Source: Candidatus Eremiobacterota bacterium
Lineage (GTDB): Bacteria > Vulcanimicrobiota > Vulcanimicrobiia > Vulcanimicrobiales > Vulcanimicrobiaceae
Assembly (NCBI GenBank): GCA_019240525.1
Contig: JAFAYE010000001.1
Location: forward strand, 1,027,300-1,091,299
Direction: 5' to 3'
Length of the DNA stretch: 64,000 nucleotides
Within the stretch, counting starts at the first letter, position 1. Each line of letters begins with the position of its first letter. Positions 37,623 to 51,548 of the stretch are shown here, one piece after another. Position numbers and translations under genes: made by a program. The notes under the pieces are model-generated. The model searched no databases. It saw nothing but the letters and a program-made list of their open reading frames with translations, and was not told the origin of the DNA.

Positions 37623-39989
37623 ATGAGCGCCACCTTCGCGCACGTGCTCAGGCGCCTTCGGCGCAACGCCGGGTTGTCGCAGGAAGCCCTGGCCGAGCAT
37701 GCCGGTCTCAGCAAAGACGCAATCAGCGCTTTAGAGCGGGGAACGAGGCGCGCCCCGCACTTGGAGACCGTCGAGCACCTCGCCGATGCGCTCGAGTTGG
37801 ATTCAACACTGCGCCTCGAGCTGGAGGCAGCAGCGTCGCGCGCCCGGGAGCGCAAGCCGTTTAGGGCGTGGTCCTCTCAACTTCCGACGTTCGCAACGTC
37901 GCTAACCGGCCGCGATAACGAGGTCGCAGATCTCCGCACGATCCTGGAGAACGAGCGGCTTGTAACCGTCACCGGCACCGGCGGCATCGGTAAGACGCGT
38001 GTCGCGGTTTCGGCGGCGGAACAGGTTGCCGCAGCACGCGATCTTCAAATAGCGTTCGTCGATCTCGCCGCCGTGCGCGTCGGTACCGACGTTTCCAGCA
38101 AAATCGCTTCAGCGCTCGGCGTACGCATCGCCGGTTCGGGAGATGCGGTCGAGGAACTCGTTGCGTCGCTCAAGACTCACGCCGGGTTGGTAATTCTTGA
38201 TAACTGCGAGCACGTTATCGATGACACGGCGCGCGTTGCGGCGGCTGTATTTCGTACGTGCCGCAATCTCGCTCTACTCGCCACGAGTCGCGAGCGGCTC
38301 GCCGTCGACGGCGAGCATATCTACAGGCTCGGCGCCTTGACCCTAGCGGCTGCTGTCGAGCTTTTCGAATTACGCGTTATTGGCGCCGGCGCACAGCATG
38401 CATCCACCAGCGGACAGCGCGAGATAACGGAAGAAATTTGTGGCCATCTCGACGGCATTCCGCTCGCCATCGAGCTGGCCGCCGCGCGCGTGCCATTTCT
38501 GGGACTCGGCGAACTACGGGCTCGTCTTCGGGGGCAGCGCGCCGTGCTCGTCGGCGGCCGACGCGACGCTCCCGCGCGCCACCAAACGATGGATGACACC
38601 GTCGCGTGGAGTTATGCGTTGCTCGAGAGTTCTGAGCGCGCGCTCTTTCGACGTCTTTCGCTCTTCGCGGGAGGCTGGAACTATGATGCGGTCGCGCAGG
38701 TCGCGGCGGGTTCTGGGATCGACGCGTCATCGATCGAACACGCGTTTTCGTCGCTGCTTGAGAAGTCCTTAGTCAACGCGGATATCGACGTTGCGCCCGC
38801 GCGTTTCCGGCTGTTGGAGCCTGTTCGCGTGTTTGCACGGTCGCAACTCGAGGCAGCCGGCGAATTAGTCGAGTTCTCAAAGCGTCACGCGGAGTGGATC
38901 GCGAAGCTCGCGACTTCGGCGCGCAACGATGTCACGCTATTCGGGATGGAAATCGACAACGCGCGCGCTGCGCTTGAATGGACGCTGACAGTGGACGATG
39001 CCGTGGCCGCCGCGCGAATCGTCGGCGGTTTAGGCGGCGCTTGGGCTCGAATTGGGCTGCTCGCCGAGTGCCGGCGCTGGTGCGAGAGGGTTCTCGAGAA
39101 ACTTGACGGCGCCTCATATCCGGAACTCGCTGCGAGCGTCTATCGAGCACTCATCGTGTCAATGGGCGGAAAAGGCGAGATCACAGCTATCCTTCGTGCG
39201 ATCCCCTTCTCGGAAGCGGCAGGTGATTGGAATGGGGTTGCGGTTCTGACAAGCCGGCTCGCATTGCGCTACGGCGAGAAAACGCGGTTCAGCGAGGCTG
39301 AACGCGCATTCACGCGCGTATGGCAAATCCGCGACAGGGAAGGGCTTGGAACGTCGTCAGAGTGGGCTACGGTGCTGATGCACCGCGCTAGTGTTTATCG
39401 TCGACAAGGACGGCTTGATGAGGCCGAGGACGCTATAGCACAATCGTTAACCCTGGCTCGCGCCCTAGGAAAGCCGCTGCACGAGATGTGGACCCTAATG
39501 GCCGCGTCGGGAATCGCGTTTGCACGAGGTCAACGGCAACGCGCGATCGCTCTGGCTTCCGAGACACTCGAATTGGCTCGTGCCAATCGGCACACGATTG
39601 GCGAAATGGGAAGCCGCGCTCATTTGGCGGCTTTCCACGTTGCACTCGGAGATCCTGAGCTCGCGAGAGTCCTGGCGCGCGCCACCATTCTGCAAGGAAA
39701 AGGCGCGGACCCGCGTGTGAGTTTGGCGGCGGCGTTGCACCTTGCTGCCGCAGAGGCCGTGGACGGAGATCCAATGTTGGCAGCGCAACTCAAAGGTTAT
39801 GTTGATAATGGCTTTAAGCAGGAGGAACTCGCGCTCGACCCTATGGAGACGAGCAGCTATGGCATTTTGGATGCGGCATTACGAGAACGCCTCGATGCTG
39901 AGTCGATCGAACGTCATGCGCGGGAAGGCCGGTCGTTCGACGCCGAGGATGTCGCCGAACTCGCATTTTCTGCCGACGCTAGCTTATAA
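37623..39989 (+). CDS. XRE-type HTH / STAND ATPase / TPR regulator (second)
   Basis: The 788-residue protein has the same build as the one at 32875. An XRE helix-turn-helix lies at residues 7-65 (LRRLRRNAGLSQEALAEHAG; LSKDAISALERGTRRAP). An ATPase follows with Walker A GTGGIGKT (Lys124), Walker B LVILDNCEHV and GIPLAIELAAA, and the helical TPR-like region runs to the end. It is divergent from the quinone oxidoreductase and likely regulates it and itself. The two regulators look like paralogs, differing most in the TPR sensor part. Confidence 0.9.
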   Translation: MSATFAHVLRRLRRNAGLSQEALAEHAGLSKDAISALERGTRRAPHLETVEHLADALELDSTLRLELEAAASRARERKPFRAWSSQLPTFATSLTGRDNEVADLRTILENERLVTVTGTGGIGKTRVAVSAAEQVAAARDLQIAFVDLAAVRVGTDVSSKIASALGVRIAGSGDAVEELVASLKTHAGLVILDNCEHVIDDTARVAAAVFRTCRNLALLATSRERLAVDGEHIYRLGALTLAAAVELFELRVIGAGAQHASTSGQREITEEICGHLDGIPLAIELAAARVPFLGLGELRARLRGQRAVLVGGRRDAPARHQTMDDTVAWSYALLESSERALFRRLSLFAGGWNYDAVAQVAAGSGIDASSIEHAFSSLLEKSLVNADIDVAPARFRLLEPVRVFARSQLEAAGELVEFSKRHAEWIAKLATSARNDVTLFGMEIDNARAALEWTLTVDDAVAAARIVGGLGGAWARIGLLAECRRWCERVLEKLDGASYPELAASVYRALIVSMGGKGEITAILRAIPFSEAAGDWNGVAVLTSRLALRYGEKTRFSEAERAFTRVWQIRDREGLGTSSEWATVLMHRASVYRRQGRLDEAEDAIAQSLTLARALGKPLHEMWTLMAASGIAFARGQRQRAIALASETLELARANRHTIGEMGSRAHLAAFHVALGDPELARVLARATILQGKGADPRVSLAAALHLAAAEAVDGDPMLAAQLKGYVDNGFKQEELALDPMETSSYGILDAALRERLDAESIERHAREGRSFDAEDVAELAFSADASL

Positions 39990-41368: not shown

Positions 41369-41525
41369 CCAATTCTTCCTTTCCTGAGTCTCCGTTTTGC
41401 AAGTCGGACCGCGGCTTTCGCGGAGGTCTGCAGAAATGTAACGCTGATGTAACGCGGCTCTGATAGCCTATTCCGTGGAATGTAGAAGCGGTCCGCGTGG
41501 AGGCACAAATCCGAGGAGAAGCGTT
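41369..41525. other. Intergenic promoter region before the small lipoprotein
   Basis: This 157-base region between the decayed hydrolase and the small lipoprotein holds the 18-bp direct repeat at 41436-41453 and, ten bases later, TAGCCT as a possible -10 element. Nothing else stands out. Confidence 0.5.
41436..41453 (+). promoter_or_regulatory. 18-bp direct-repeat box before the 41526 lipoprotein
   Basis: ATGTAAC-GCTG-ATGTAAC is a perfect 7-4-7 direct repeat, 73 bases before the start at 41526. A near copy, matching at 16 of 18 positions, lies on the opposite strand at 44822-44839 and points at the GloVer lipoprotein gene. In both cases TAnnCT follows after ten bases. The spacing matches PhoB-type and SARP-type operators, in which each monomer contacts one repeat. 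Confidence 0.6.
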
Positions 41526-41810
41526 ATGAAGGTTTTATATGCTCTCATCGCAAGTTCGCTAAGTCTCCTGCTCGTTGCATGCGGCGGCAACAGCGGAATC
41601 TTTCCCTCTTCCTCAGCGCTTACCATTGCTAACACGGCTGTTTTGCCGAATTATAAGAGCCTCAAGGCCCTCTATGTCGTCTATACCGACCACGTGGGCG
41701 TTCAAGTCCTAGACAGTGGCGGCTATAAGGTTCAGGCGACGATCATAAATGGCCTCGCGCGTCCTCCAGCCGCGGCCGCGGAGCCAAACAATATAATATC
41801 CTTCGTGTAA
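41526..41810 (+). CDS. Small lipoprotein of unknown function
   Basis: ATG at 41526 follows a strong ribosome-binding site (GAGGAGAAGCG) and encodes 94 residues. The lipobox is LLLVACGGN. The remainder, including ALYVVYTDHVGVQVLDSGGY, looks like one or two beta-strand pairs similar to a single blade of a propeller protein. It may be a truncated relative of the lipoprotein that follows 11 bases later, or a small partner of it. The two are surely co-transcribed. Confidence 0.75.
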   Translation: MKVLYALIASSLSLLLVACGGNSGIFPSSSALTIANTAVLPNYKSLKALYVVYTDHVGVQVLDSGGYKVQATIINGLARPPAAAAEPNNIISFV

Positions 41811-41821
41811 GAGGAATGAAA

Positions 41822-43348
41822 ATGACAAAACCACGTAGCTGTGCGCGACTTACGACTATCACCGTGTTGGCAATCGGGTACCTTACCGCTTGCAGCGGTT
41901 CGAACCCGCCGGCATTGCCATCTTTGTCGGCAGCCACTACTAGCGAATCTGAAAGCATGCCGGCCTACCGCCATCCAAAAGGTAAGTATGAAACCATAGC
42001 GGTCAAGCTCCGCCGCAAGGGCGGTACGTTCAGCATGAACCCGTATGACGGTTTTACGTTATCTGGTGGCTATAGTGCGAATAACGCCTCTAATCGCACG
42101 ACACTCGCAATAACAAATAGTGGTGCGGCAAATCCGCTCAACGCTCCAACGCCCTCTTACGGTACGCCTGTACTGTTTATAGAAGCCGCCGTCAAACCTC
42201 GCTCCGTCGCCTTCCAAGTTGGTCACAGCAGCGTTACGATACAATCGACTTCACTACAGAGTGGCGCTTACTACGACATTGTCGCTTACGCGGGCGATCG
42301 TCAAGTAGCATCCTATGCTTCTGCATACCCTGCTAATAACGGGGAACTGGTCGTCCAGACGCCATTCAGCGGCCTATCTATTACGCCCGGCGAACCGGTT
42401 ACAATCGAACTTGTCGCGTTATCAGCAGAAAGTCTGCTTGTGCCTTGCTCAAGCTGTAACAATGGTGCCGTTGATTACTACAACGCGAACGCTCCAGGCG
42501 GTATCACGGCGTCTACCGCCGTTTCATACGCCAATTCCGTTGCCGTGGACGATTCGGACAACATATATGTTGGCGCAAACTCCGCAACTGAGTGCCAGGG
42601 GCTCATAATTGAACTTTACTCTATTGGCGGCACGTTTAGTTACACCGATAATTTAGGATGCGAAAGTCAACCACGAAGCATCGCTCCGGCGAGTGGCGCT
42701 TCGCCGGCATTCGACGCCGCGGAGGCTGTTAGCTATCAGATGCTGTCATTTCCCGATCAGGGTGTGAATAGCTCGTTCGGCTATACCGATCCCAACCTTA
42801 TAGCGTTAGCGACAATCACGGTAGACGGCGCGAATAACGTTTATCTAGGCGGAACAAATAGCTCGAACGCTCCTGAAGTAGACTTTCTGACGCCAAGTCA
42901 GCAGCTGAGCAGCTTGGGGCTACAGCTTTCGGGCACTCCCACGGCACTTGCTATTGATACGCAAGGCGATCTGCTCGTCGCCGAATGCGGAGTCGGAATC
43001 GCCGTTTTTCCTCCAGGCGCGACAACTCCGAGTTCATTCTACGACGCTCACAATTGTCCGAGCTCGATGGTTTTCGGAAACGGTGGAAATTGGCTCTATG
43101 TAATAGATCACGGTATACAGCGCGGCTACTACAACGTTTTCGTCTATGAATATCCCGGAGGAGGCGTCACGACTGAGTGGTACGACGGAATGCCCTATCA
43201 GGACTTCCCGACACAGATTGCGATTGAACCGCGAGTTCCGTTATTTAATCCCGACCTCTATCGGAAAGAACGCCCCTACTGGAAGTACTGGGGTGACCTT
43301 AAACGCAACCCGAAGCCAACGTCGAAGCGCACGGTGAATTTAAATTGA
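41822..43348 (+). CDS. Large secreted lipoprotein, propeller-like
   Basis: ATG at 41822 lies six bases after GAGGA; an ATG at 41816 is too close to that site. The 508-residue protein has a lipoprotein signal (LTTITVLAIGYLTACSGS). A 100-residue beta domain comes first (FTLSGGYSANNASNRTTLAI), then repeated strands with turns such as VAVDDSDNIYVGAN, VDGANNVYLGGTN and IDTQGDLLVAECG, typical of NHL-like propellers. It ends with a basic tail. Local base composition is lower in GC than the neighbouring genes, a hint of recent acquisition. Function is unknown. Confidence 0.82.
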   Translation: MTKPRSCARLTTITVLAIGYLTACSGSNPPALPSLSAATTSESESMPAYRHPKGKYETIAVKLRRKGGTFSMNPYDGFTLSGGYSANNASNRTTLAITNSGAANPLNAPTPSYGTPVLFIEAAVKPRSVAFQVGHSSVTIQSTSLQSGAYYDIVAYAGDRQVASYASAYPANNGELVVQTPFSGLSITPGEPVTIELVALSAESLLVPCSSCNNGAVDYYNANAPGGITASTAVSYANSVAVDDSDNIYVGANSATECQGLIIELYSIGGTFSYTDNLGCESQPRSIAPASGASPAFDAAEAVSYQMLSFPDQGVNSSFGYTDPNLIALATITVDGANNVYLGGTNSSNAPEVDFLTPSQQLSSLGLQLSGTPTALAIDTQGDLLVAECGVGIAVFPPGATTPSSFYDAHNCPSSMVFGNGGNWLYVIDHGIQRGYYNVFVYEYPGGGVTTEWYDGMPYQDFPTQIAIEPRVPLFNPDLYRKERPYWKYWGDLKRNPKPTSKRTVNLN

Positions 43349-43371
43349 GGTGTCTCTGCGCTCGCCCGTTT

Positions 43372-44700
43372 TTACGGCGATAGTGTAAAGACGGTTCCGC
43401 AACCTTGGTGCTCGCTGCATGCCTGCCCGCCACCTTGATATGTCGTGCCGTAGAGCATTTGCTTCAAGCTGATCAGGCCTGCTGCCGGATATTCCCCATC
43501 GCTTCCGCCAGCAAAGCTGTAGAGTACGGTCTCCGCACCAGCTGTCGTGACAGAGAAGACCGTTCCGCAACCCGAAGAGCCGCACGCCGTCCCGGTACCG
43601 CCGAAAAAAGTCGTGCCGTAGAGCAGGCCGTTTACGGCATTTAAGGGGGCTTGTGGATTTTGACCGTCGCTGCCGCCGGCAAAACTGTATAGGACGCTCT
43701 CCGTACCGGTGGTGGTGGCGGAGAAGATCGTCCCGAGATTCGACGTTCCACCGTGATAGGTCGTACCGTAAAGCGTTCCGTTCTCATTCGTCAGTGAGGC
43801 TTCCGGCGACTCACCGTCCGCGCCAGCTTTAAAGTCGTAAACGATGGTTTCGATTCCCGACGGCGTGATCTTGAACACGGTGCCGCATGACGGACCGTTG
43901 CAGCCGGATCCGCCCCCGGCGGTCGTGCCATAGAACGCAGCCCCCACTTTCGTTAGGCCGGCCAACGGGATAGCCCCATCGGCCCCTCCTGCAAAGCTGT
44001 GTATGACGCTTTCGACACCGGACGTAGTTACCGAGAACACCGTGCCGCACCCGATCTGCGAACAGCTTTGGCCACCGCCGAGTTGGGTCGTGCCATAAAG
44101 CGTGCCTTTGAAGTCGAGTAAATTTCCGCTCGGGCTTTGCCCGTCGCTGCCGCCTTGGAAACGGTACAGCACGTTCTCAATTCCGCTCGTCGAGATCGAG
44201 AAGAACGTCCCGCAACCTAGTCCGCCGTCGCATGCGGTATCGCCACCGTAGCCGGTCGTTCCGTAAAGCGTTCCATCGACGTCGATTAGACCGCCCCCCG
44301 GGCCGGAGCCGTCGGTGCCGCCTGCAAAGCTGTACAACACCGTTTCAACGCCTTTCTTGGTGATCTTGAAGACGGTCCCACATCCGCCGCCACATGCCGG
44401 GTTTCCGCCCCCTTGGGATGTACCGTAAAACGTGCCGTTCACGTTCGTAAGAGCGACGAACGGATAAGCAGCATCGGCTCCGCCAGCGAATCTATAAAGA
44501 ACAGTTTCGGAGACAGAATTCGGTGACGTATGACGTTGCGGCGACGTATGTTGCAGAAGGGGCGGCGCTGGCGAGCTAGACACCGCGCCAGAACATCCCG
44601 CAAGTAGCGCGACGATAAGGCACGGCGCGCGGCGTATTTCTGATGCAATACGCACGGATTCAAACACCGTCAGCCGTCGGCATGCGACACGTTGATTCAT
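43372..44700 (-). CDS. GloVer-repeat lipoprotein
   Basis: The 442-residue lipoprotein (lipobox LIVALLAGCSG) consists of seven repeats of about 55 residues. Each has ETVLYSFAGGxDG, a hydrophobic strand, GTLYGTTxxGG and CGTVFSVT. This is the choice-of-anchor tandem repeat (GloVer) seen in surface proteins of several uncultured phyla. Paired cysteines recur in most repeats (CGGGCG, CDGGLGC, CSQIGC, CNGPSC), which would allow disulfides outside the cell. It probably forms a propeller. It diverges from the SARP-like regulator. Confidence 0.9.
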   Translation of the reverse strand: MNQRVACRRLTVFESVRIASEIRRAPCLIVALLAGCSGAVSSSPAPPLLQHTSPQRHTSPNSVSETVLYRFAGGADAAYPFVALTNVNGTFYGTSQGGGNPACGGGCGTVFKITKKGVETVLYSFAGGTDGSGPGGGLIDVDGTLYGTTGYGGDTACDGGLGCGTFFSISTSGIENVLYRFQGGSDGQSPSGNLLDFKGTLYGTTQLGGGQSCSQIGCGTVFSVTTSGVESVIHSFAGGADGAIPLAGLTKVGAAFYGTTAGGGSGCNGPSCGTVFKITPSGIETIVYDFKAGADGESPEASLTNENGTLYGTTYHGGTSNLGTIFSATTTGTESVLYSFAGGSDGQNPQAPLNAVNGLLYGTTFFGGTGTACGSSGCGTVFSVTTAGAETVLYSFAGGSDGEYPAAGLISLKQMLYGTTYQGGGQACSEHQGCGTVFTLSP

Positions 44701-44821
44701 TTCTTAGCGCAACTCCTCACTCGTCAAAGCTTCGAAGACCGAGACGCCGGCCCCGCCACAAAGGCAACAGCGCAATCGCGCGGTCAACCCATTGACCGCA
44801 CAACGAGCGTACGATGGACCC

Positions 44822-44839
44822 GTTACACCAGCGTTAAAT
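44822..44839 (-). promoter_or_regulatory. 18-bp direct-repeat box between the GloVer gene and the SARP-like regulator
   Basis: On the minus strand the sequence reads ATTTAAC-GCTG-GTGTAAC, matching 16 of 18 positions of the box at 41436-41453, including the spacer. It points toward the GloVer lipoprotein (start 44700) and lies 52 bases before the regulator start at 44891. After ten bases TACGCT offers a -10 element. It may serve both divergent genes. Confidence 0.6.
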
Positions 44840-44890: not shown

Positions 44891-47779
44891 ATGCATGGAG
44901 GAGGTCGAAGGCCCCTGTCCCCTCAGAAGGTTGCCCCCAACGCCGGAGCATTCGACGAGGTGCTGCTTGCCCCAGAGGTGTTGCGAGGGCGCTTGATCGA
45001 TCGAATCAGCCGTGCCGCGCCGCGGCTTATCCGGCTGATCGCCCCGGCCGGCTACGGCAAGACGACTCTCGTTCACCAGCTCGGTAGTGGCTATGCGCGC
45101 TTTGCGGTATGCGATTGCGACGGAGCTCAAACTCTGATCGAATTATCGCGGCGCATCATCAGTGCATCGAGCTTCGGGTTGACCGAGCGCGCGGACTCAC
45201 TTGCCCGGCAAATGGTTTCGCTCAAGGCGGACGAGCCCTCTCACTGGCGCGACCTTGCGCTCAGAGCTTGGACGGCCGACGACCCTGTCGACGAGCTATT
45301 CGTCTTCGATAACCTCGAGGCGCTCTACGATGCAACCGACTTGCAAGACCTCATTGCTCGACTCCTCGCAGAAAACCCGGCCTGTCGCACCGTAGCGTTC
45401 TGCTCTCGAGTGCCGGTAACGGTTCGGGTGCCACGCCATTTGCAGCCGCATTTAACGCTGACGATCGGCGTAGACGATCTTGCTTTCGATCACAACGAGT
45501 TTCTCGCAGCGTTCGAGCGCATTCAGGTACAGCGCGAAGTATTAAATCAAATCGAACAGATGACGCGTGGCTGGCCTCTAGCGGTTCGGCTTTTTCGTCG
45601 CCTGGTCATCGAAAGCGGTTCCTCCGCCGTGCCGCTCGAGCCTGACGCAATCGCATTTGCCGATCTTTACGACTATCTTCGAGATCACGTCCTAGGGTTG
45701 ATGGGGCCGCATCATATTACTGCGCTGCTGGCGTGCACGGCCATCCCGGATGCGACAGAGCTGGATATTGCATCGGCATTTCATGACGACACGAATGTGC
45801 GCGAAACGCTGACCGAAGTACTTCCGTTCCTGGCCCGAACGGGAAAGGACTCATTTGCGCCGCACCCGCTAATCTCTCAGACGCTTCGCGAGCGCTTCCC
45901 TAGTCGGTGTAAGGCGATTTTGAAAACCGTCGCGGACGCTCACGATCACGCGGGCAATTGGTTACAGGCCGCACGACTCTATCTTGCTGGCGGTGACATC
46001 GAGCGCGCAGCCGAAGCTCTCAACGCGCACGACACCTTCGTCGTGCCTACCTGGCCACTGAAATTCGCGGAGATCGTGACGCAGATCCCCGAGGAAATCG
46101 CTATACGATATCCTGCGCTTTACTCAGCCACGAGTATTCTGCGAGTGCCGCAGCTCACGCCGGAGGAGTGGGCGGTAAAAACGTCGGTGGTCTGGGAAGC
46201 ATTGCCTGCCGACACGCTCCCGCATACTCGTGCGTCCGCGTTCGGCGCGTACGCCGCGGCCCTTATGAATTTAGGCAAACTCGACCAAGCCAATGAACTG
46301 CTTCGAGCCTATGAGGCTTCGCGACGTCCCGACGATTTTGCCGGAGCAATGTGCGCAGCCCTGATTGGTACGGGCATCGCAACTTGGCGAGGCAGGTTTT
46401 CCGGACTCGAGCAAAGCCGAACGGAGATGTCACCCGTCATCTCAGCCTCCGCAGGTTGGCACGCTCAATTTCTTTACGAGTTTGACGCACGTCAGTATCG
46501 TTGTAACGGCGACTGGGGCGCCGAGCGCCGTACGCTCGAGCACGCCCTGGACTTCGCGCGCAAGAGCAATATGCCGACAATACCTCTTTGGGTGCTTACC
46601 TACCAGGCTTTTGGGGCGTGGCTGGCGGGAGACGACCGTTACTATGAGGCAAGACTCGCGGAACTAGAAGCAGAGATCTATGAGGGCGCCGCCAAGGGAT
46701 TCTCGTTTTTTGTAGACTGCGCTCGAGGCCGCGCCGAATCGACCTCCTCTGGTTACGAACGCCCTGAGATACGGTCATATGCCCTCCTAATTGCCGCAGC
46801 GGTTGCGTCGACCGAAGCAGAGCGTCGACGGTGGGCTGTGCAGGCGCTCTCTGCAGCTGAGAGCAGCGGTCAGCCATTCGCCCATATATTAGCGCGGGTG
46901 GCATTAGCGGAGCTCGACATTGCTGTTCGCGAAGAGAATTACGAAAGTGCCGTCTCGCTCGCCGACGCTGTGGAATCGGAACCGCTACGTGAAGCATTGA
47001 GCGCTCTGCGCAATCAATCGGCGCGCGGCAACATGCTCAAGGCGTTCGCACGGCGATTTCAACAGTTCGAGCCCCGCGCACGGGAACCACTCGCTATCCA
47101 GCTTATGCAAGGCCGGGTATGTAGGGGCGGCGTGGCACTCGACTTGATGAAACGGGAGTTCGAATTACTCTGCGTTCTTGCCCTGAAAAAGAAGCCAATG
47201 TCTACGGACGACCTCCTCGAACTCGTCTGGCCGAACCAGAGCGGATCGAGCAGCGTCGTGCGCGTTTACGCGGCGCGCTTACGCACGCGCCTCGGCAGCG
47301 ACGTCGTTATCCGCGCGCGAGACGGCTACTCCATCGCGATCCCAGTGCTGGTTGACCTCCTCGAAACCGAGGCACGCTGCCGAAGCCTCGATCTCGAAAG
47401 TCCCGACCCCGCTACCATACCGTCGATCAAGTCCCTTTTCGATGCTCTGTGCGTGAGCGCTCCGTCATGGCTCGTGAAGCGCGAGTGGTTTGCGCCATAT
47501 GTTCCGAGGATCGAAGAGCTCCGTCGGAAACTTGGATTGACGATCGCTCGCTACTGTCATGCGAATGGCGATGAGCGCGGCGCGCTCTCGGCGGTCGCGG
47601 AACTCACGGCCCTCGACCCTTGCGACGAAAGGGCGCGCGAACTTGCCATCAAGGTTTATCTCGGCACGGGAGACCAGTTGAACGCTAAACGCGAATACCG
47701 TCTCTACCGCGAAGCGCTGGAGAAGAGTCTTGGAGCCGAGCCGCCGCGCTGGCTCGCCGAGCTAGTCTCTGCGACCTAG
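44891..47779 (+). CDS. STAND ATPase regulator with C-terminal OmpR-type HTH and BTAD (SARP-like)
   Basis: ATG at 44891 gives 962 residues; the frame is open further upstream to a TTG at 44792. A MalT-like ATPase comes first (Walker A APAGYGKTT, Lys57; Walker B ELFVFDNLEALYD), then a long helical region. A winged helix follows near residue 760 (MKREFELLCVLALKKKPMST; ARLRTRLGSDVVIRARDGYS). The C-terminal BTAD has ARYCHANGDERGALSAVAEL, CDERARELAIKVYLGTGDQL and AKREYRLYREAL. SARP winged helices bind 11-base-spaced direct repeats, like those next to this gene. The DNA-binding domain at the C-terminal side is unlike classical SARPs. Confidence 0.87.
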   Translation: MHGGGRRPLSPQKVAPNAGAFDEVLLAPEVLRGRLIDRISRAAPRLIRLIAPAGYGKTTLVHQLGSGYARFAVCDCDGAQTLIELSRRIISASSFGLTERADSLARQMVSLKADEPSHWRDLALRAWTADDPVDELFVFDNLEALYDATDLQDLIARLLAENPACRTVAFCSRVPVTVRVPRHLQPHLTLTIGVDDLAFDHNEFLAAFERIQVQREVLNQIEQMTRGWPLAVRLFRRLVIESGSSAVPLEPDAIAFADLYDYLRDHVLGLMGPHHITALLACTAIPDATELDIASAFHDDTNVRETLTEVLPFLARTGKDSFAPHPLISQTLRERFPSRCKAILKTVADAHDHAGNWLQAARLYLAGGDIERAAEALNAHDTFVVPTWPLKFAEIVTQIPEEIAIRYPALYSATSILRVPQLTPEEWAVKTSVVWEALPADTLPHTRASAFGAYAAALMNLGKLDQANELLRAYEASRRPDDFAGAMCAALIGTGIATWRGRFSGLEQSRTEMSPVISASAGWHAQFLYEFDARQYRCNGDWGAERRTLEHALDFARKSNMPTIPLWVLTYQAFGAWLAGDDRYYEARLAELEAEIYEGAAKGFSFFVDCARGRAESTSSGYERPEIRSYALLIAAAVASTEAERRRWAVQALSAAESSGQPFAHILARVALAELDIAVREENYESAVSLADAVESEPLREALSALRNQSARGNMLKAFARRFQQFEPRAREPLAIQLMQGRVCRGGVALDLMKREFELLCVLALKKKPMSTDDLLELVWPNQSGSSSVVRVYAARLRTRLGSDVVIRARDGYSIAIPVLVDLLETEARCRSLDLESPDPATIPSIKSLFDALCVSAPSWLVKREWFAPYVPRIEELRRKLGLTIARYCHANGDERGALSAVAELTALDPCDERARELAIKVYLGTGDQLNAKREYRLYREALEKSLGAEPPRWLAELVSAT

Positions 47780-47813: not shown

Positions 47814-47830
47814 GTTCACGCTTTCTTCAT
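47814..47830 (+). promoter_or_regulatory. 17-bp direct-repeat motif before the 47878 lipoprotein
   Basis: GTTCACGCTTTCTTCAT lies 48-64 bases before the ATG. It has TTCA repeated at an 11-base period and is followed after ten bases by TATCTG. It matches the motifs at 27182-27198 (13 of 17 positions) and 59691-59707 (13 of 17). Confidence 0.55.
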
Positions 47831-47877: not shown

Positions 47878-48900
47878 ATGCATAAGACTCACCTTACGGG
47901 CGCACTCGCCGTTTCGGCTCTTTTCCTCAGCGCCTGCACCCAAGCGACTGGTCCGGCCGGCCCCACGACTCCGAGCAGCACTCGTGAAGCGCTTCGAGGC
48001 AGAGGCCAGACCTCGTCAATGATCTATTCGGTCGAAGAGTACGGATATTCGGTGAATGCCTATTCGCCGTCGGCAAACGGAAACGTAGCGCCGGCCCTAC
48101 AGATCGCCGGCAGCCAAACCAAGCTCTACGAGCCGGAGGGGATGGCCGTCGATTCTGCGGGCAACGTCGCGGTCGCGAATTCCGGGCAAAATATCACGCT
48201 GTACCCTGCCGGCGCGAATGGCAACGTCGCGCCCATGGCCACGATCACTTGCGGCGGCCCGGATTTCGGTGACGAGCCGTACGAGCTAGCATACGATCAG
48301 AATGGAGCGCTCTACGCGCTCTACGTCGGCGGTTACCATGCCGACGTCATATCGATTCAGGTATACGAGCCAGGGCAGCAATCGGGCTGCATTCACGGAA
48401 CACACATCATCACCGGCAATCGAGTCCGCCTCTTCGGCTACGGAGGGTTGACCGTTGCAAACGGCATGATTTATAACTCCAGCGATGACTCCATCGACGG
48501 ATACCACACGAGCGACAACGGAAACGTTTCCCCGGCACTCGTGATCCGCGGGTCGCATACGCGGCTGAAACAAGGCATGGGAATGGCCGTCGATGCATCG
48601 GGGGCAATCTACGTGGCCAATCGTACGAACGTGCTCGTCTTCGGACCGGGAGCCCACGGAAACGTCGCTCCTCTCGCCGTCATTGCCGGCAAGAAAACCG
48701 GAATTCCAACCGGCTATGGCGCGACGGCCGTTACCGTCGACGGCAGCGGTGAGATTTTCGTGGCGGTCGAGAACTCGCAGCAGGTACCGGCGATCCTCGT
48801 TTTTGCGAAAGGCGCGAACGGAAACGCAACGCCGATTCGCACGATTCAAGGCGCCAGCACTGGCTTAACCTACATTCCGGAGATGGGCTTTAAGCCCTAG
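47878..48900 (+). CDS. Secreted beta-propeller lipoprotein with GNVAP repeats
   Basis: ATG follows GGAGGG and encodes 340 residues with a lipoprotein signal (LAVSALFLSACTQ). Five repeats of about 50-60 residues share GNVAPxxxI: NGNVAPALQI, NGNVAPMATI, NGNVSPALVI, HGNVAPLAVI, NGNATPIRTI. Each is linked to a turn such as GMAVDSAGNVAVAN or GMAVDASGAIYVAN. That pattern fits an NHL-like propeller. It follows the SARP-like regulator on the same strand after 98 bases. Function is unknown. Confidence 0.87.
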   Translation: MHKTHLTGALAVSALFLSACTQATGPAGPTTPSSTREALRGRGQTSSMIYSVEEYGYSVNAYSPSANGNVAPALQIAGSQTKLYEPEGMAVDSAGNVAVANSGQNITLYPAGANGNVAPMATITCGGPDFGDEPYELAYDQNGALYALYVGGYHADVISIQVYEPGQQSGCIHGTHIITGNRVRLFGYGGLTVANGMIYNSSDDSIDGYHTSDNGNVSPALVIRGSHTRLKQGMGMAVDASGAIYVANRTNVLVFGPGAHGNVAPLAVIAGKKTGIPTGYGATAVTVDGSGEIFVAVENSQQVPAILVFAKGANGNATPIRTIQGASTGLTYIPEMGFKP

Positions 48901-48926: not shown

Positions 48927-51548
48927 CTACGATCTTCGAATCATCCGAGCAGTCAGTTCGGTGCGGTTGCGTACGCCAAGCTTTCCGAAAATCGACGTCA
49001 GATGTTTTTCGATGGTGCGCCTATTGACTGCGAGATGCTCGGCAAGACGTTTGTTTGGGATCCCTTTAACGACTAGTGCGGCGATTTCGTGTTCCCGCGG
49101 TGAGAGCAACGATGCCTGCACGTCGGGCGCGATCTCGCATGGCGGAGCGACGCCGCACAAGTCGCGCATCGCTATCTCGTGGGCTGGCCACTCCAGTTCG
49201 CGATACTTCAACGCGGCTTGCGTCGCGTAGCTTTTGAGCGCCTCGCCGTCGCCGATACGATTCGCCGCCACCGCCCGCACATGCGCCGCCGTGGCCGCAT
49301 AAATCGGCAAGTCACTCATCTGCTCAAGGGCCGGCAGATGCGAGAGCGCCAGTGGCAGCGTTGCTTCGTCCCCCAGCTCTGCAGCGGCGATCAACGTTTC
49401 GGTTGCAGCAAACGGGCCCGCCAATAACGTCATTGCGTCCCGAAGCGTGCGCGACGCCTCTTCGTTCTCGCCTCGCACGCGCAGCCATCGCGCATAAGGC
49501 CCGGCGATGCGTCCCAACGTCGAATTGATGCGGCTTCCCAGCGCGTTTTTCACCGCTTCGGAAGAGGCGCAGCGCAAGGCCAGCTCATCGTCGCGCAACG
49601 CACAGGCGAGCGTTAATGCGGCCGCCGCCAGCACGACGGGTGCCGTCGTAGTCGTCTCGGGAATCGAGAGCCCCTGTGCGATCGCCGCGCGAGCGAGCTC
49701 CCATCGCCCTGCGCGTTCGTGGAGTAACGCTGCGTTGGCGGAGGTGACGGCCTCGAGTCCATGCAGCCGGCGTTCTCGCAGTTCCGGCTGGATCGTGTCG
49801 AAGATCTCCAACGCTTCCTCGTCGGCGCCAAGAACGCCGAGGCTGAAACCGGCGTTGAAGCGCGCGCGCAGCGCCGCCTCCGGGCTCTCCGATTGGCAGC
49901 GGCGGCTGTATTCGTCGGAGGAATGGCGCACCGCGGCCAGATCGCCGCGAACGGCCGCCGCGTAGGTCAGCGCGCTGGCATAAATCGCACTTTCGCTGGC
50001 CGCCTCGGCGCGGGCGATCCACTTCGCCGCCACCTTCGTCTCACATCGGTCGAGGTAGGTGAACGCCAACGAAACGTAGAGCTTCGCTTTTTCCACGGCG
50101 GCTCTATCCGAGAGGCGCGAGATTGCTCGCCGCAAAATGGCGCGCGAGGCGATCGCGTCTCCGCCGATGCGCGCCTGAGCGCTCATCGACAGGTAGAGCT
50201 CCGCAACGCGTCGCTCGTCGCCGGTCTCTTCGAACGTTTGCGCCGCAGTTTCATAGAGGCCGGCCGCAACGTCGGCCCTTCCGTCACGGGCCGCAGCTGC
50301 GGCGGCTTTTTCTTGAAGGCGCCCGCGTACGCGCGCATCTTGGGCGCCGATGAGCGCGCGTTCGAAGCAGAGGCGCGCGTCCGCGTACGCATGCACCGCG
50401 AGCGCCTCGTCGCCGGCAAGCTCGTTGTAACGCAGCGCCTGTGCAAGGTTCTGCGCCGCCCATGCGTGATAGCCAAGGTCGAAGGCGCTTGCGCCGTTCC
50501 GCTCCAGTGCTTCGAGCATGCTTTGATGCAGCGGTATGAGCTCGTCGCGCAGCATTGTTTCATAGATTGCGTGGCGCGTAATTGCGTGGCGGAATGCGTA
50601 GGCGACGGGCGCGGCAGATACTTCTTCGATGAGTTGCAAGTCGCGAAGTCGTCGAAGGCCGTTGAAGACGCGCTCTAAAGGCTCGGCGCAAATGGACGCC
50701 AACAGTCTTGCGTCGAAGCGGCGGCCGAGAACGGCCGCGCGCGTCAAAATTCCGCGTGACGTCTCGTCGAGCCCCGCACAGCGTTCGAGAACTGCGGCAC
50801 GAATCGTCAGCGGCAAATCGGAGAACGCGCGGACCGATACGGAGCGCTCGAGCGCGTTGCGCAGAAGCTCTTCGGCGAAGAACGGATTGCCTTCGCTGCG
50901 TTCTACGATCTCTGCGATAGTCTGCGCGGGTAGTGGCGCTCGTTCGCCGAGAGCGAGCGCTGCGACTTGGCGCAGTTCGGCATTGCTCAACGGTCCTAGC
51001 TCGATACGGTACGCCGACGCGCCCCGTTGAAATCGCGGTAAGAAGTTCGCTAGCGAACTTTCGCCGGTCTCGGAGGGCGAGCGATAGGTAACGACGAGCA
51101 ACAGCCGCATCGACACCAGCATCGGCAGCACGTGAAGCAGAAACCGTAAGGAGCCTTCGTCCGCCCATTGCGCGTCTTCGACGATAAAGACGGCATGACG
51201 TCGCCGACACGCGGCGGCAAGACGCTCGGTCAGCGCTTCGAGGTGCGCCTCCCGGCTAAGCTCGTGAGAGAGCTGCGAGGCGGCCCCGATGCCGGCGAGC
51301 GCCTCGAGCACGGGCGCATACGGGGCGTTGCCGAACTCGCGCGCGACGCCGATCCCAAGCGCTGCGCGGCCGCCGCTGAGCGTACCGCGAAACTCGGCAA
51401 GAAGCCGGCTCTTGCCCATCCCTGCATCGCCGGAGAGCAGCACGCACGAGCCTTTTCCGTGCGCGGCCGCCAGCCGGCGGTCAACGAGCAACTGCAGCTC
51501 GCGCGTACGGCCAATGAGGACCGGACAAAGAATCGGACCGGTTACCAT
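48927..51548 (-). CDS. LuxR-type STAND regulator
   Basis: The 873-residue protein has an N-terminal ATPase with GRTRELQLL, Walker A GDAGMGKS (Lys46) and Walker B AVFIVEDAQWAD. A TPR-like middle follows, and the C-terminal LuxR helix-turn-helix reads LLSPREHEIAALVVKGIPNK, RLAEHLAVNRRTIEKHLTSI and FGKLGVRNRTEL. This is the LAL (large ATP-binding LuxR) layout. It diverges from a PQQ-type lipoprotein gene over 106 bases that hold repeated GGTACGGTT, so it may control that gene. Confidence 0.92.
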   Translation of the reverse strand: MVTGPILCPVLIGRTRELQLLVDRRLAAAHGKGSCVLLSGDAGMGKSRLLAEFRGTLSGGRAALGIGVAREFGNAPYAPVLEALAGIGAASQLSHELSREAHLEALTERLAAACRRRHAVFIVEDAQWADEGSLRFLLHVLPMLVSMRLLLVVTYRSPSETGESSLANFLPRFQRGASAYRIELGPLSNAELRQVAALALGERAPLPAQTIAEIVERSEGNPFFAEELLRNALERSVSVRAFSDLPLTIRAAVLERCAGLDETSRGILTRAAVLGRRFDARLLASICAEPLERVFNGLRRLRDLQLIEEVSAAPVAYAFRHAITRHAIYETMLRDELIPLHQSMLEALERNGASAFDLGYHAWAAQNLAQALRYNELAGDEALAVHAYADARLCFERALIGAQDARVRGRLQEKAAAAAARDGRADVAAGLYETAAQTFEETGDERRVAELYLSMSAQARIGGDAIASRAILRRAISRLSDRAAVEKAKLYVSLAFTYLDRCETKVAAKWIARAEAASESAIYASALTYAAAVRGDLAAVRHSSDEYSRRCQSESPEAALRARFNAGFSLGVLGADEEALEIFDTIQPELRERRLHGLEAVTSANAALLHERAGRWELARAAIAQGLSIPETTTTAPVVLAAAALTLACALRDDELALRCASSEAVKNALGSRINSTLGRIAGPYARWLRVRGENEEASRTLRDAMTLLAGPFAATETLIAAAELGDEATLPLALSHLPALEQMSDLPIYAATAAHVRAVAANRIGDGEALKSYATQAALKYRELEWPAHEIAMRDLCGVAPPCEIAPDVQASLLSPREHEIAALVVKGIPNKRLAEHLAVNRRTIEKHLTSIFGKLGVRNRTELTARMIRRS

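Follow-up and report, generated by a model that had tools for sequence, protein, structure and literature searches.

Two direct-repeat boxes as predicted local operators of a STAND-SARP regulator beside lipoprotein genes in Eremiobacterota

Introduction

Promoters controlled by SARP-type regulators carry direct repeats 11 or 22 base pairs (bp) apart, close to the -10 element (PMC10936776). In AfsR, the large SARP of Streptomyces, the SARP module stands at the N-terminus (PMC10936776; PMC10972967), and in the AfsR complex R92 forms a hydrogen bond with a T in each repeat and R87 touches the opposite backbone a few positions further along (PMC10936776). Here we report on a stretch of 64,000 nucleotides, called the window in the following, from the genome of a Candidatus Eremiobacterota bacterium (contig JAFAYE010000001.1, positions 1,027,300 to 1,091,299), in which two similar 18-bp direct-repeat boxes lie beside the gene of a regulator that combines a STAND sensor with a SARP module. 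Judged from the comparison of sequences, both boxes are likely to be operators of this STAND-SARP regulator, which is encoded between two lipoprotein units and would act as a local, cluster-situated switch activating both. The Eremiobacterota are a mostly uncultured phylum, and a literature search found nothing on transcriptional regulation in these bacteria; since one member, Vulcanimicrobium, is in culture (PMC9758169), direct testing is feasible.

With AfsR and the afs box (PMC10936776) the locus shares an OmpR-type winged helix with a BTAD domain, a nucleotide-binding domain, helical repeats, a pair of direct repeats with 11-bp spacing near the -10 element and an aligned recognition helix with equivalents of R92 and R87. 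It differs in that the SARP module is C-terminal, so that the large-SARP order of N-terminal SARP, NB-ARC and TPR is reversed in the window regulator, in that the repeat is TGTAAC and not the afs repeat CGTTTATCG, and in that the window regulator is predicted to act on envelope genes next to it, in another phylum, and not on antibiotic regulators. Small or cluster-situated SARPs such as ActII-ORF4, DnrI and PimR (PMC10972967) are likewise local activators beside their targets and use heptameric direct repeats, commonly with an 11-bp period, whereas they act on biosynthetic clusters through other repeats and the window regulator has a STAND sensor. STAND activators of the MalT/LAL type also join an N-terminal MalT-like nucleoside triphosphatase (NTPase) to a C-terminal DNA-binding domain, which is a LuxR-type helix-turn-helix in those proteins and a SARP module here. 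The Pho box, as at phoA, is an 18-bp direct repeat (7+4+7) located about 10 bp upstream of the -10 element. The boxes of the window have this same layout, but the Pho box of PhoB has another repeat sequence, another kind of regulator and other target genes.

The boxes and the lipoprotein genes that they face

An earlier note on this DNA had described the two boxes, a TAnnCT hexamer ten bases past each of them, a lipoprotein gene faced by each (41526 and 44700) and a regulator gene at 44891. All of these were found again in the sequence, both lipoproteins have a lipobox, and direct comparison of the boxes gives an identity of 16/18. The features are listed below.

41436..41453, plus strand: box 1, ATGTAAC-GCTG-ATGTAAC, which reads ATGTAACGCTGATGTAAC; a predicted operator facing the lipoprotein operon, from its sequence and a motif class kept beside relatives of the regulator
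41464..41469, plus strand: TAGCCT, predicted -10 element, starting exactly 10 bases past box 1
41526..41810, plus strand: small lipoprotein gene, 94 amino acids, lipobox VAC, 72 bp past box 1
41816..43348, plus strand: lipoprotein gene, 510 amino acids, SBBP beta-propeller repeat (PF06739, E 5e-5)
43372..44700, minus strand: GloVer-repeat lipoprotein gene, 442 amino acids (TIGR03803, E 5e-60), 121 bp past box 2
44806..44811, minus strand: TACGCT, predicted -10 element, starting exactly 10 bases past box 2
44822..44839, minus strand: box 2, ATTTAAC-GCTG-GTGTAAC, which reads ATTTAACGCTGGTGTAAC; from its sequence and the same geometry in 27 loci of relatives
44891..47779, plus strand: STAND-SARP regulator gene, 962 amino acids

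The 94-amino-acid lipoprotein has no match in Pfam or NCBIfam, and the gene at 41816, separated from it by a gap of 5 bp, is probably co-transcribed with it. Box 2 lies in the divergent region 5' of the regulator gene and is directed away from it.

The STAND-SARP regulator

The N-terminal half of the regulator is a MalT-like NTPase with the Walker A motif APAGYGKT (PRK04841 over residues 28-380, E 1e-14, below the equivalog cut-off), the middle part consists of helical repeats, and at the C-terminus an OmpR-type winged helix is directly followed by BTAD, with PF00486 and PF03704 both above cut-off. A full-length structure prediction agrees with this order of NTPase first and SARP module last, and no match to GerE, the LuxR-type helix-turn-helix, was found in the regulator. 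The closest structures to the C-terminal model (pLDDT 92) are AfsR and EmbR, which also come top among natural proteins with the C-terminal sequence profile. Sequence and predicted fold therefore agree in identifying the C-terminus as a real SARP module, which bears out the SARP-like regulator with a winged helix proposed earlier. In the named collection searched, close relatives of the regulator come from Eremiobacterota (WPS-2) or from unclassified bins, and a profile search found members in 61 of the 117 genomes of the class. Three large ATPase-type regulators are encoded within a 14-kb part of the window (37623-39989, 44891-47779 and 48927-51548), and they carry three different DNA-binding domains (Xre-type, SARP and LuxR-type).

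The box class beside relatives of the regulator

Relatives were sampled as 83 regulator loci from 54 genomes, many of them drafts, with flanks of 3 kb. In these flanks GTAAC-N6-GTAAC has 31 exact matches, spread over 18 of the 83 loci, compared with 0-2 for any other gap between 0 and 23, and repeats of GTAAG and GTAAT are likewise most frequent at a period of 11 bp (13 and 10 matches). The direct-repeat spacing of SARP promoters is thus found beside the regulators as a sharp peak at 11 bp. Within 500 bp upstream of the regulators, GTAA-N7-GTAA occurs at 27 loci and invariably points away from the regulator gene, as box 2 does. A TAnnnT hexamer following the 54 boxes, those of the window included, starts at +10 in 8 cases, at +11 in 7 and only once elsewhere between +2 and +23. 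This distance of 10-11 bp is counted from the GTAAC core and depends on the repeat end that is chosen; if the 9-bp repeat of box 1, ATGTAACGC, is counted, it becomes 8 bp, the distance that SARP promoters have between the 3' repeat and the -10 element. In a set of 60 genomes the exact motif, with 120 copies, barely outnumbers its reversed control, with 113, and 9 of the 120 copies lie beside regulator genes, where 0.14 would be expected. When period-11 repeats with a -10 element were sought without a fixed motif, the excess was only modest, with 14 exact repeats compared with 1-8 for the other periods. In a sister family, four genomes show the footprint GT(A/T)AC-N6-GTAGC, 10 bp and TAG..T in a lipoprotein promoter beside the regulator, and the 11-bp period is absent from the loci of STAND proteins of other phyla.

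According to these comparisons, an 11-bp-periodic class of TGTAA(C/G/T) direct repeats accompanies the regulator family across the Eremiobacterota. The conservation that the earlier note had looked for is found at the level of this class, which is kept in related genomes beside the regulator family, with a fixed period and orientation and a preferred -10 distance, in many cases 10-11 bp. Because the loci of relatives show the same motif, period, orientation and -10 distance, the boxes of the window appear to be real and beyond chance. Several points weigh against reading the boxes as operators of the regulator. About half of the sampled regulator loci have no recognised box, the loci of close species are not independent and were counted separately in several tests, and the repeats of box 2 are imperfect (5/7). 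Moreover, no close ortholog of the regulator was found in the sampled genomes of the own genus, which is why the exact site of the window is not footprintable in near relatives. Conserved synteny of the exact locus was considered and rejected: the DNA of box 1 and of the small lipoprotein gene has no match in 59 relatives, and the neighbours of the regulator's relatives differ from those at the window locus.

The upstream position bears on a different use of the divergent box. Relatives have their boxes 6-290 bp upstream of the regulator gene, as is the case for box 2, and such a site could mainly be autoregulatory, for example by repressing the regulator's own promoter, with the orientation to the neighbour being secondary. 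We regard this as very unlikely, as every box upstream of a regulator is directed away from it, the -10 elements are on the neighbour's side, and box 1 sits 3.4 kb off before the lipoprotein operon.

Further repeats were seen near relatives of the regulator. At five loci (L310, L319, L320, L322 and L323) four tandem TGTAAT/TGTAAG repeats stand at an exact 11-bp period 30-65 bp upstream of the regulator, and in four genomes (flanks of L163, L168, L300 and L319) a near-palindrome, ATGCCA-N6-TGGCAT, which is unrelated to the boxes, lies about 1.8 kb from the regulator.

Chance resemblance and the rest of the own genome

Taken by itself, the resemblance of box 1 and box 2 is weak evidence and not decisive. 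Dinucleotide-shuffled windows contain on average 19 pairs of 11-bp-spaced direct repeats matching at at least 16 of 18 positions (shifted and reverse duplicates counted), and at least one such pair is present in 98% of the shuffles. The chance of 0.003 put forward in the earlier note was too favourable, because the pair had been picked after the fact, and shuffled windows give such pairs routinely. In the real window most of the 16/18 direct-repeat pairs are GC-rich; perfect 7/7 repeats occur at 8 positions, three of which are shifts of box 1, and a 16/18 partner exists for box 1 only. A pattern search of the own genome (2.8 Mb) for sites with up to three mismatches from box 1 returned only box 1 and box 2 themselves, 3.4 kb apart. 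The abundance of such pairs in shuffled windows and the lack of further sites in the genome would both suit a resemblance that is due to chance or to an inert duplicated fragment, but the family signal in relatives predicts the sequence, period, orientation and -10 distance of the boxes, which makes this explanation extremely improbable.

With a relaxed motif no genome-wide enrichment was found (75 matches against 137 for the reversed control), and among the 75 matches TAnnnT follows at +8 to +11 only for the two boxes and for one further site, C1:2093651. The own genome encodes about 22 GloVer-repeat lipoproteins, and a genome-wide lipoprotein regulon was rejected, as none of 21 other GloVer gene starts matches either box at more than 12/18. 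A further lipoprotein gene lies downstream of the regulator:

47878..48900, plus strand: NHL-repeat lipoprotein gene

A third box before this gene was also rejected, the candidate being just a weak 5/7 repeat at 47815 that misfits the motif; with no convincing box before it, the NHL lipoprotein is left out of the target set. Within the own genome the boxes are a local feature and do not mark a general lipoprotein regulon. The regulon of surface lipoproteins, as the earlier note had worded it, does not hold, with some 20 GloVer genes and the NHL gene at 47878 lacking a convincing box; the absence of further genome matches, which that note had named as speaking against its proposal, counts against the regulon and leaves the local switch unaffected.

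Some of the GloVer genes stand in tandem clusters, e.g., C1:689679-700612, 2247543-2268963 and 2701872-2704508. In the GloVer lipoproteins at C1:2701872 and C1:2703261 (L118), tandem (L)RQAQGD repeats directly follow the lipobox, and their coding DNA seems to be a repeated GC-rich unit.

Genes faced by boxes in relatives

The genes of relatives were called by in-house open-reading-frame and lipobox rules. By these rules, 12 of the 15 boxes with a -10 element at +10/+11 were judged to face a lipobox protein, compared with 2.5% for a random oriented position near those genes, although a fair promoter baseline would be higher. Targets with lipobox-like N-termini include a propeller of the Vgb-lyase type, a GH16 enzyme and a cupredoxin. 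Other boxes face a secreted protein of the CAP family, a winged helix that stands alone (L172), a [NiFe] hydrogenase small subunit (behind two boxes at L178 and, by similarity, at L328 and L355) or, within the largest clade, a divergent gene whose small product has about 125-200 amino acids. Lipoproteins are therefore a frequent but not a defining target in relatives, and on this point, too, the lipoprotein regulon is not supported as the earlier note had worded it.

In one STAND-SARP clade tandem GTAAC boxes occur about 95-120 bp apart, at L178:12082/12188 (G003), L328:3637/3731 (G091), G008:C19:1517 and 1634 (L355), and L179:327 and 445 (G015). Three of these four genomes have the boxes before the [NiFe] hydrogenase small-subunit gene, and therefore the same class of switch may control hydrogen oxidation in this clade. 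At two other loci small genes lie between the STAND-SARP gene and the lipoprotein gene, with boxes on both sides (L172:4068-4703 and L061:4115-4594); the product is a winged helix (Trans_reg_C) at L172 and a similar-looking short protein at L061.

Recognition helix, box type and possible readers

One position in the recognition helix of the winged helix varies together with the type of box:

47252..47293, plus strand: recognition helix, residues 788-801

In the profile alignment R791 of the window regulator falls on R87 of AfsR and R796 on R92. R796 is invariant across the aligned regulator family, in keeping with a GT that does not vary in the repeats. The residue equivalent to R87 is Lys or Arg in 25/25 regulators of the GTAAC type and in 1/21 of the GTAAG/GTAAT type, which mostly have Ser or Tyr; this count is inflated by kinship (P of roughly 0.03 when counted by lineage), and the pattern was noticed post hoc. 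As a lead rather than a proof, the R87-equivalent may take part in reading the final base pair of each repeat, with Lys/Arg favouring the G opposite C.

An OmpR-family regulator encoded elsewhere, of the PhoB type or another, could also read the boxes, and the SARP would then be a bystander or a competitor for the same site. PhoB has a winged helix of the same fold as the SARP module, the first half of box 2 contains TTTAAC, and the sites of PhoP and AfsR overlap at afsS, which is a precedent for shared sites (PMC10972967). In the own genome a candidate Pho box (L357) lies about 150-180 bp upstream of pstS (C1:2662099), and this promoter, TTAAC-N6-TTAAT followed by TACACT 11 bp on, has the same geometry. 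However, the sites of the boxes include no phosphate gene, and the TGTAAC pair was not found at pstS, the one pst promoter inspected for it. The motif is tied to STAND-SARP genes by position, by orientation and by the recognition-helix residue. A reader of the PhoB type would explain neither the orientation relative to the SARP gene nor the covariation, and we consider such a reader unlikely.

Proposed mechanism

The core idea of a local SARP operator is well supported by these comparisons, and from covariation and conservation we infer that the SARP module binds the boxes and activates both lipoprotein units. In the proposed mechanism, the N-terminal MalT-like STAND NTPase and the helical-repeat part would sense a signal and gate the regulator. 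The C-terminal SARP module would then bind each box as a side-by-side dimer with one winged helix per repeat, stand in for a good -35 element and recruit RNA polymerase, as AfsR does. In this way, the regulator would switch on both lipoprotein units, the operon 41526-43348 and the GloVer gene 43372-44700.

Significance

A broader proposal, to which we give about even credence, is that the Eremiobacterota possess a phylum-wide class of cluster-situated regulators that join a MalT-like STAND sensor to a C-terminal SARP module and recognise TGTAAN repeats standing next to the regulator gene in a fixed orientation. One recognition-helix residue would set the last base of the repeat, Lys/Arg going with C and Ser/Tyr with G/T. 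If this is true, the targets of dozens of uncharacterised regulators, among them lipoproteins and [NiFe] hydrogenase, would be readable from sequence. With a predicted operator and a candidate one-residue specificity rule, targets could be assigned for a large family of regulators without the need for genetics. SARP-type promoter control, which is best known from the antibiotic clusters of Streptomyces, would thereby extend, with the domain order reversed, to surface and energy genes of another phylum.

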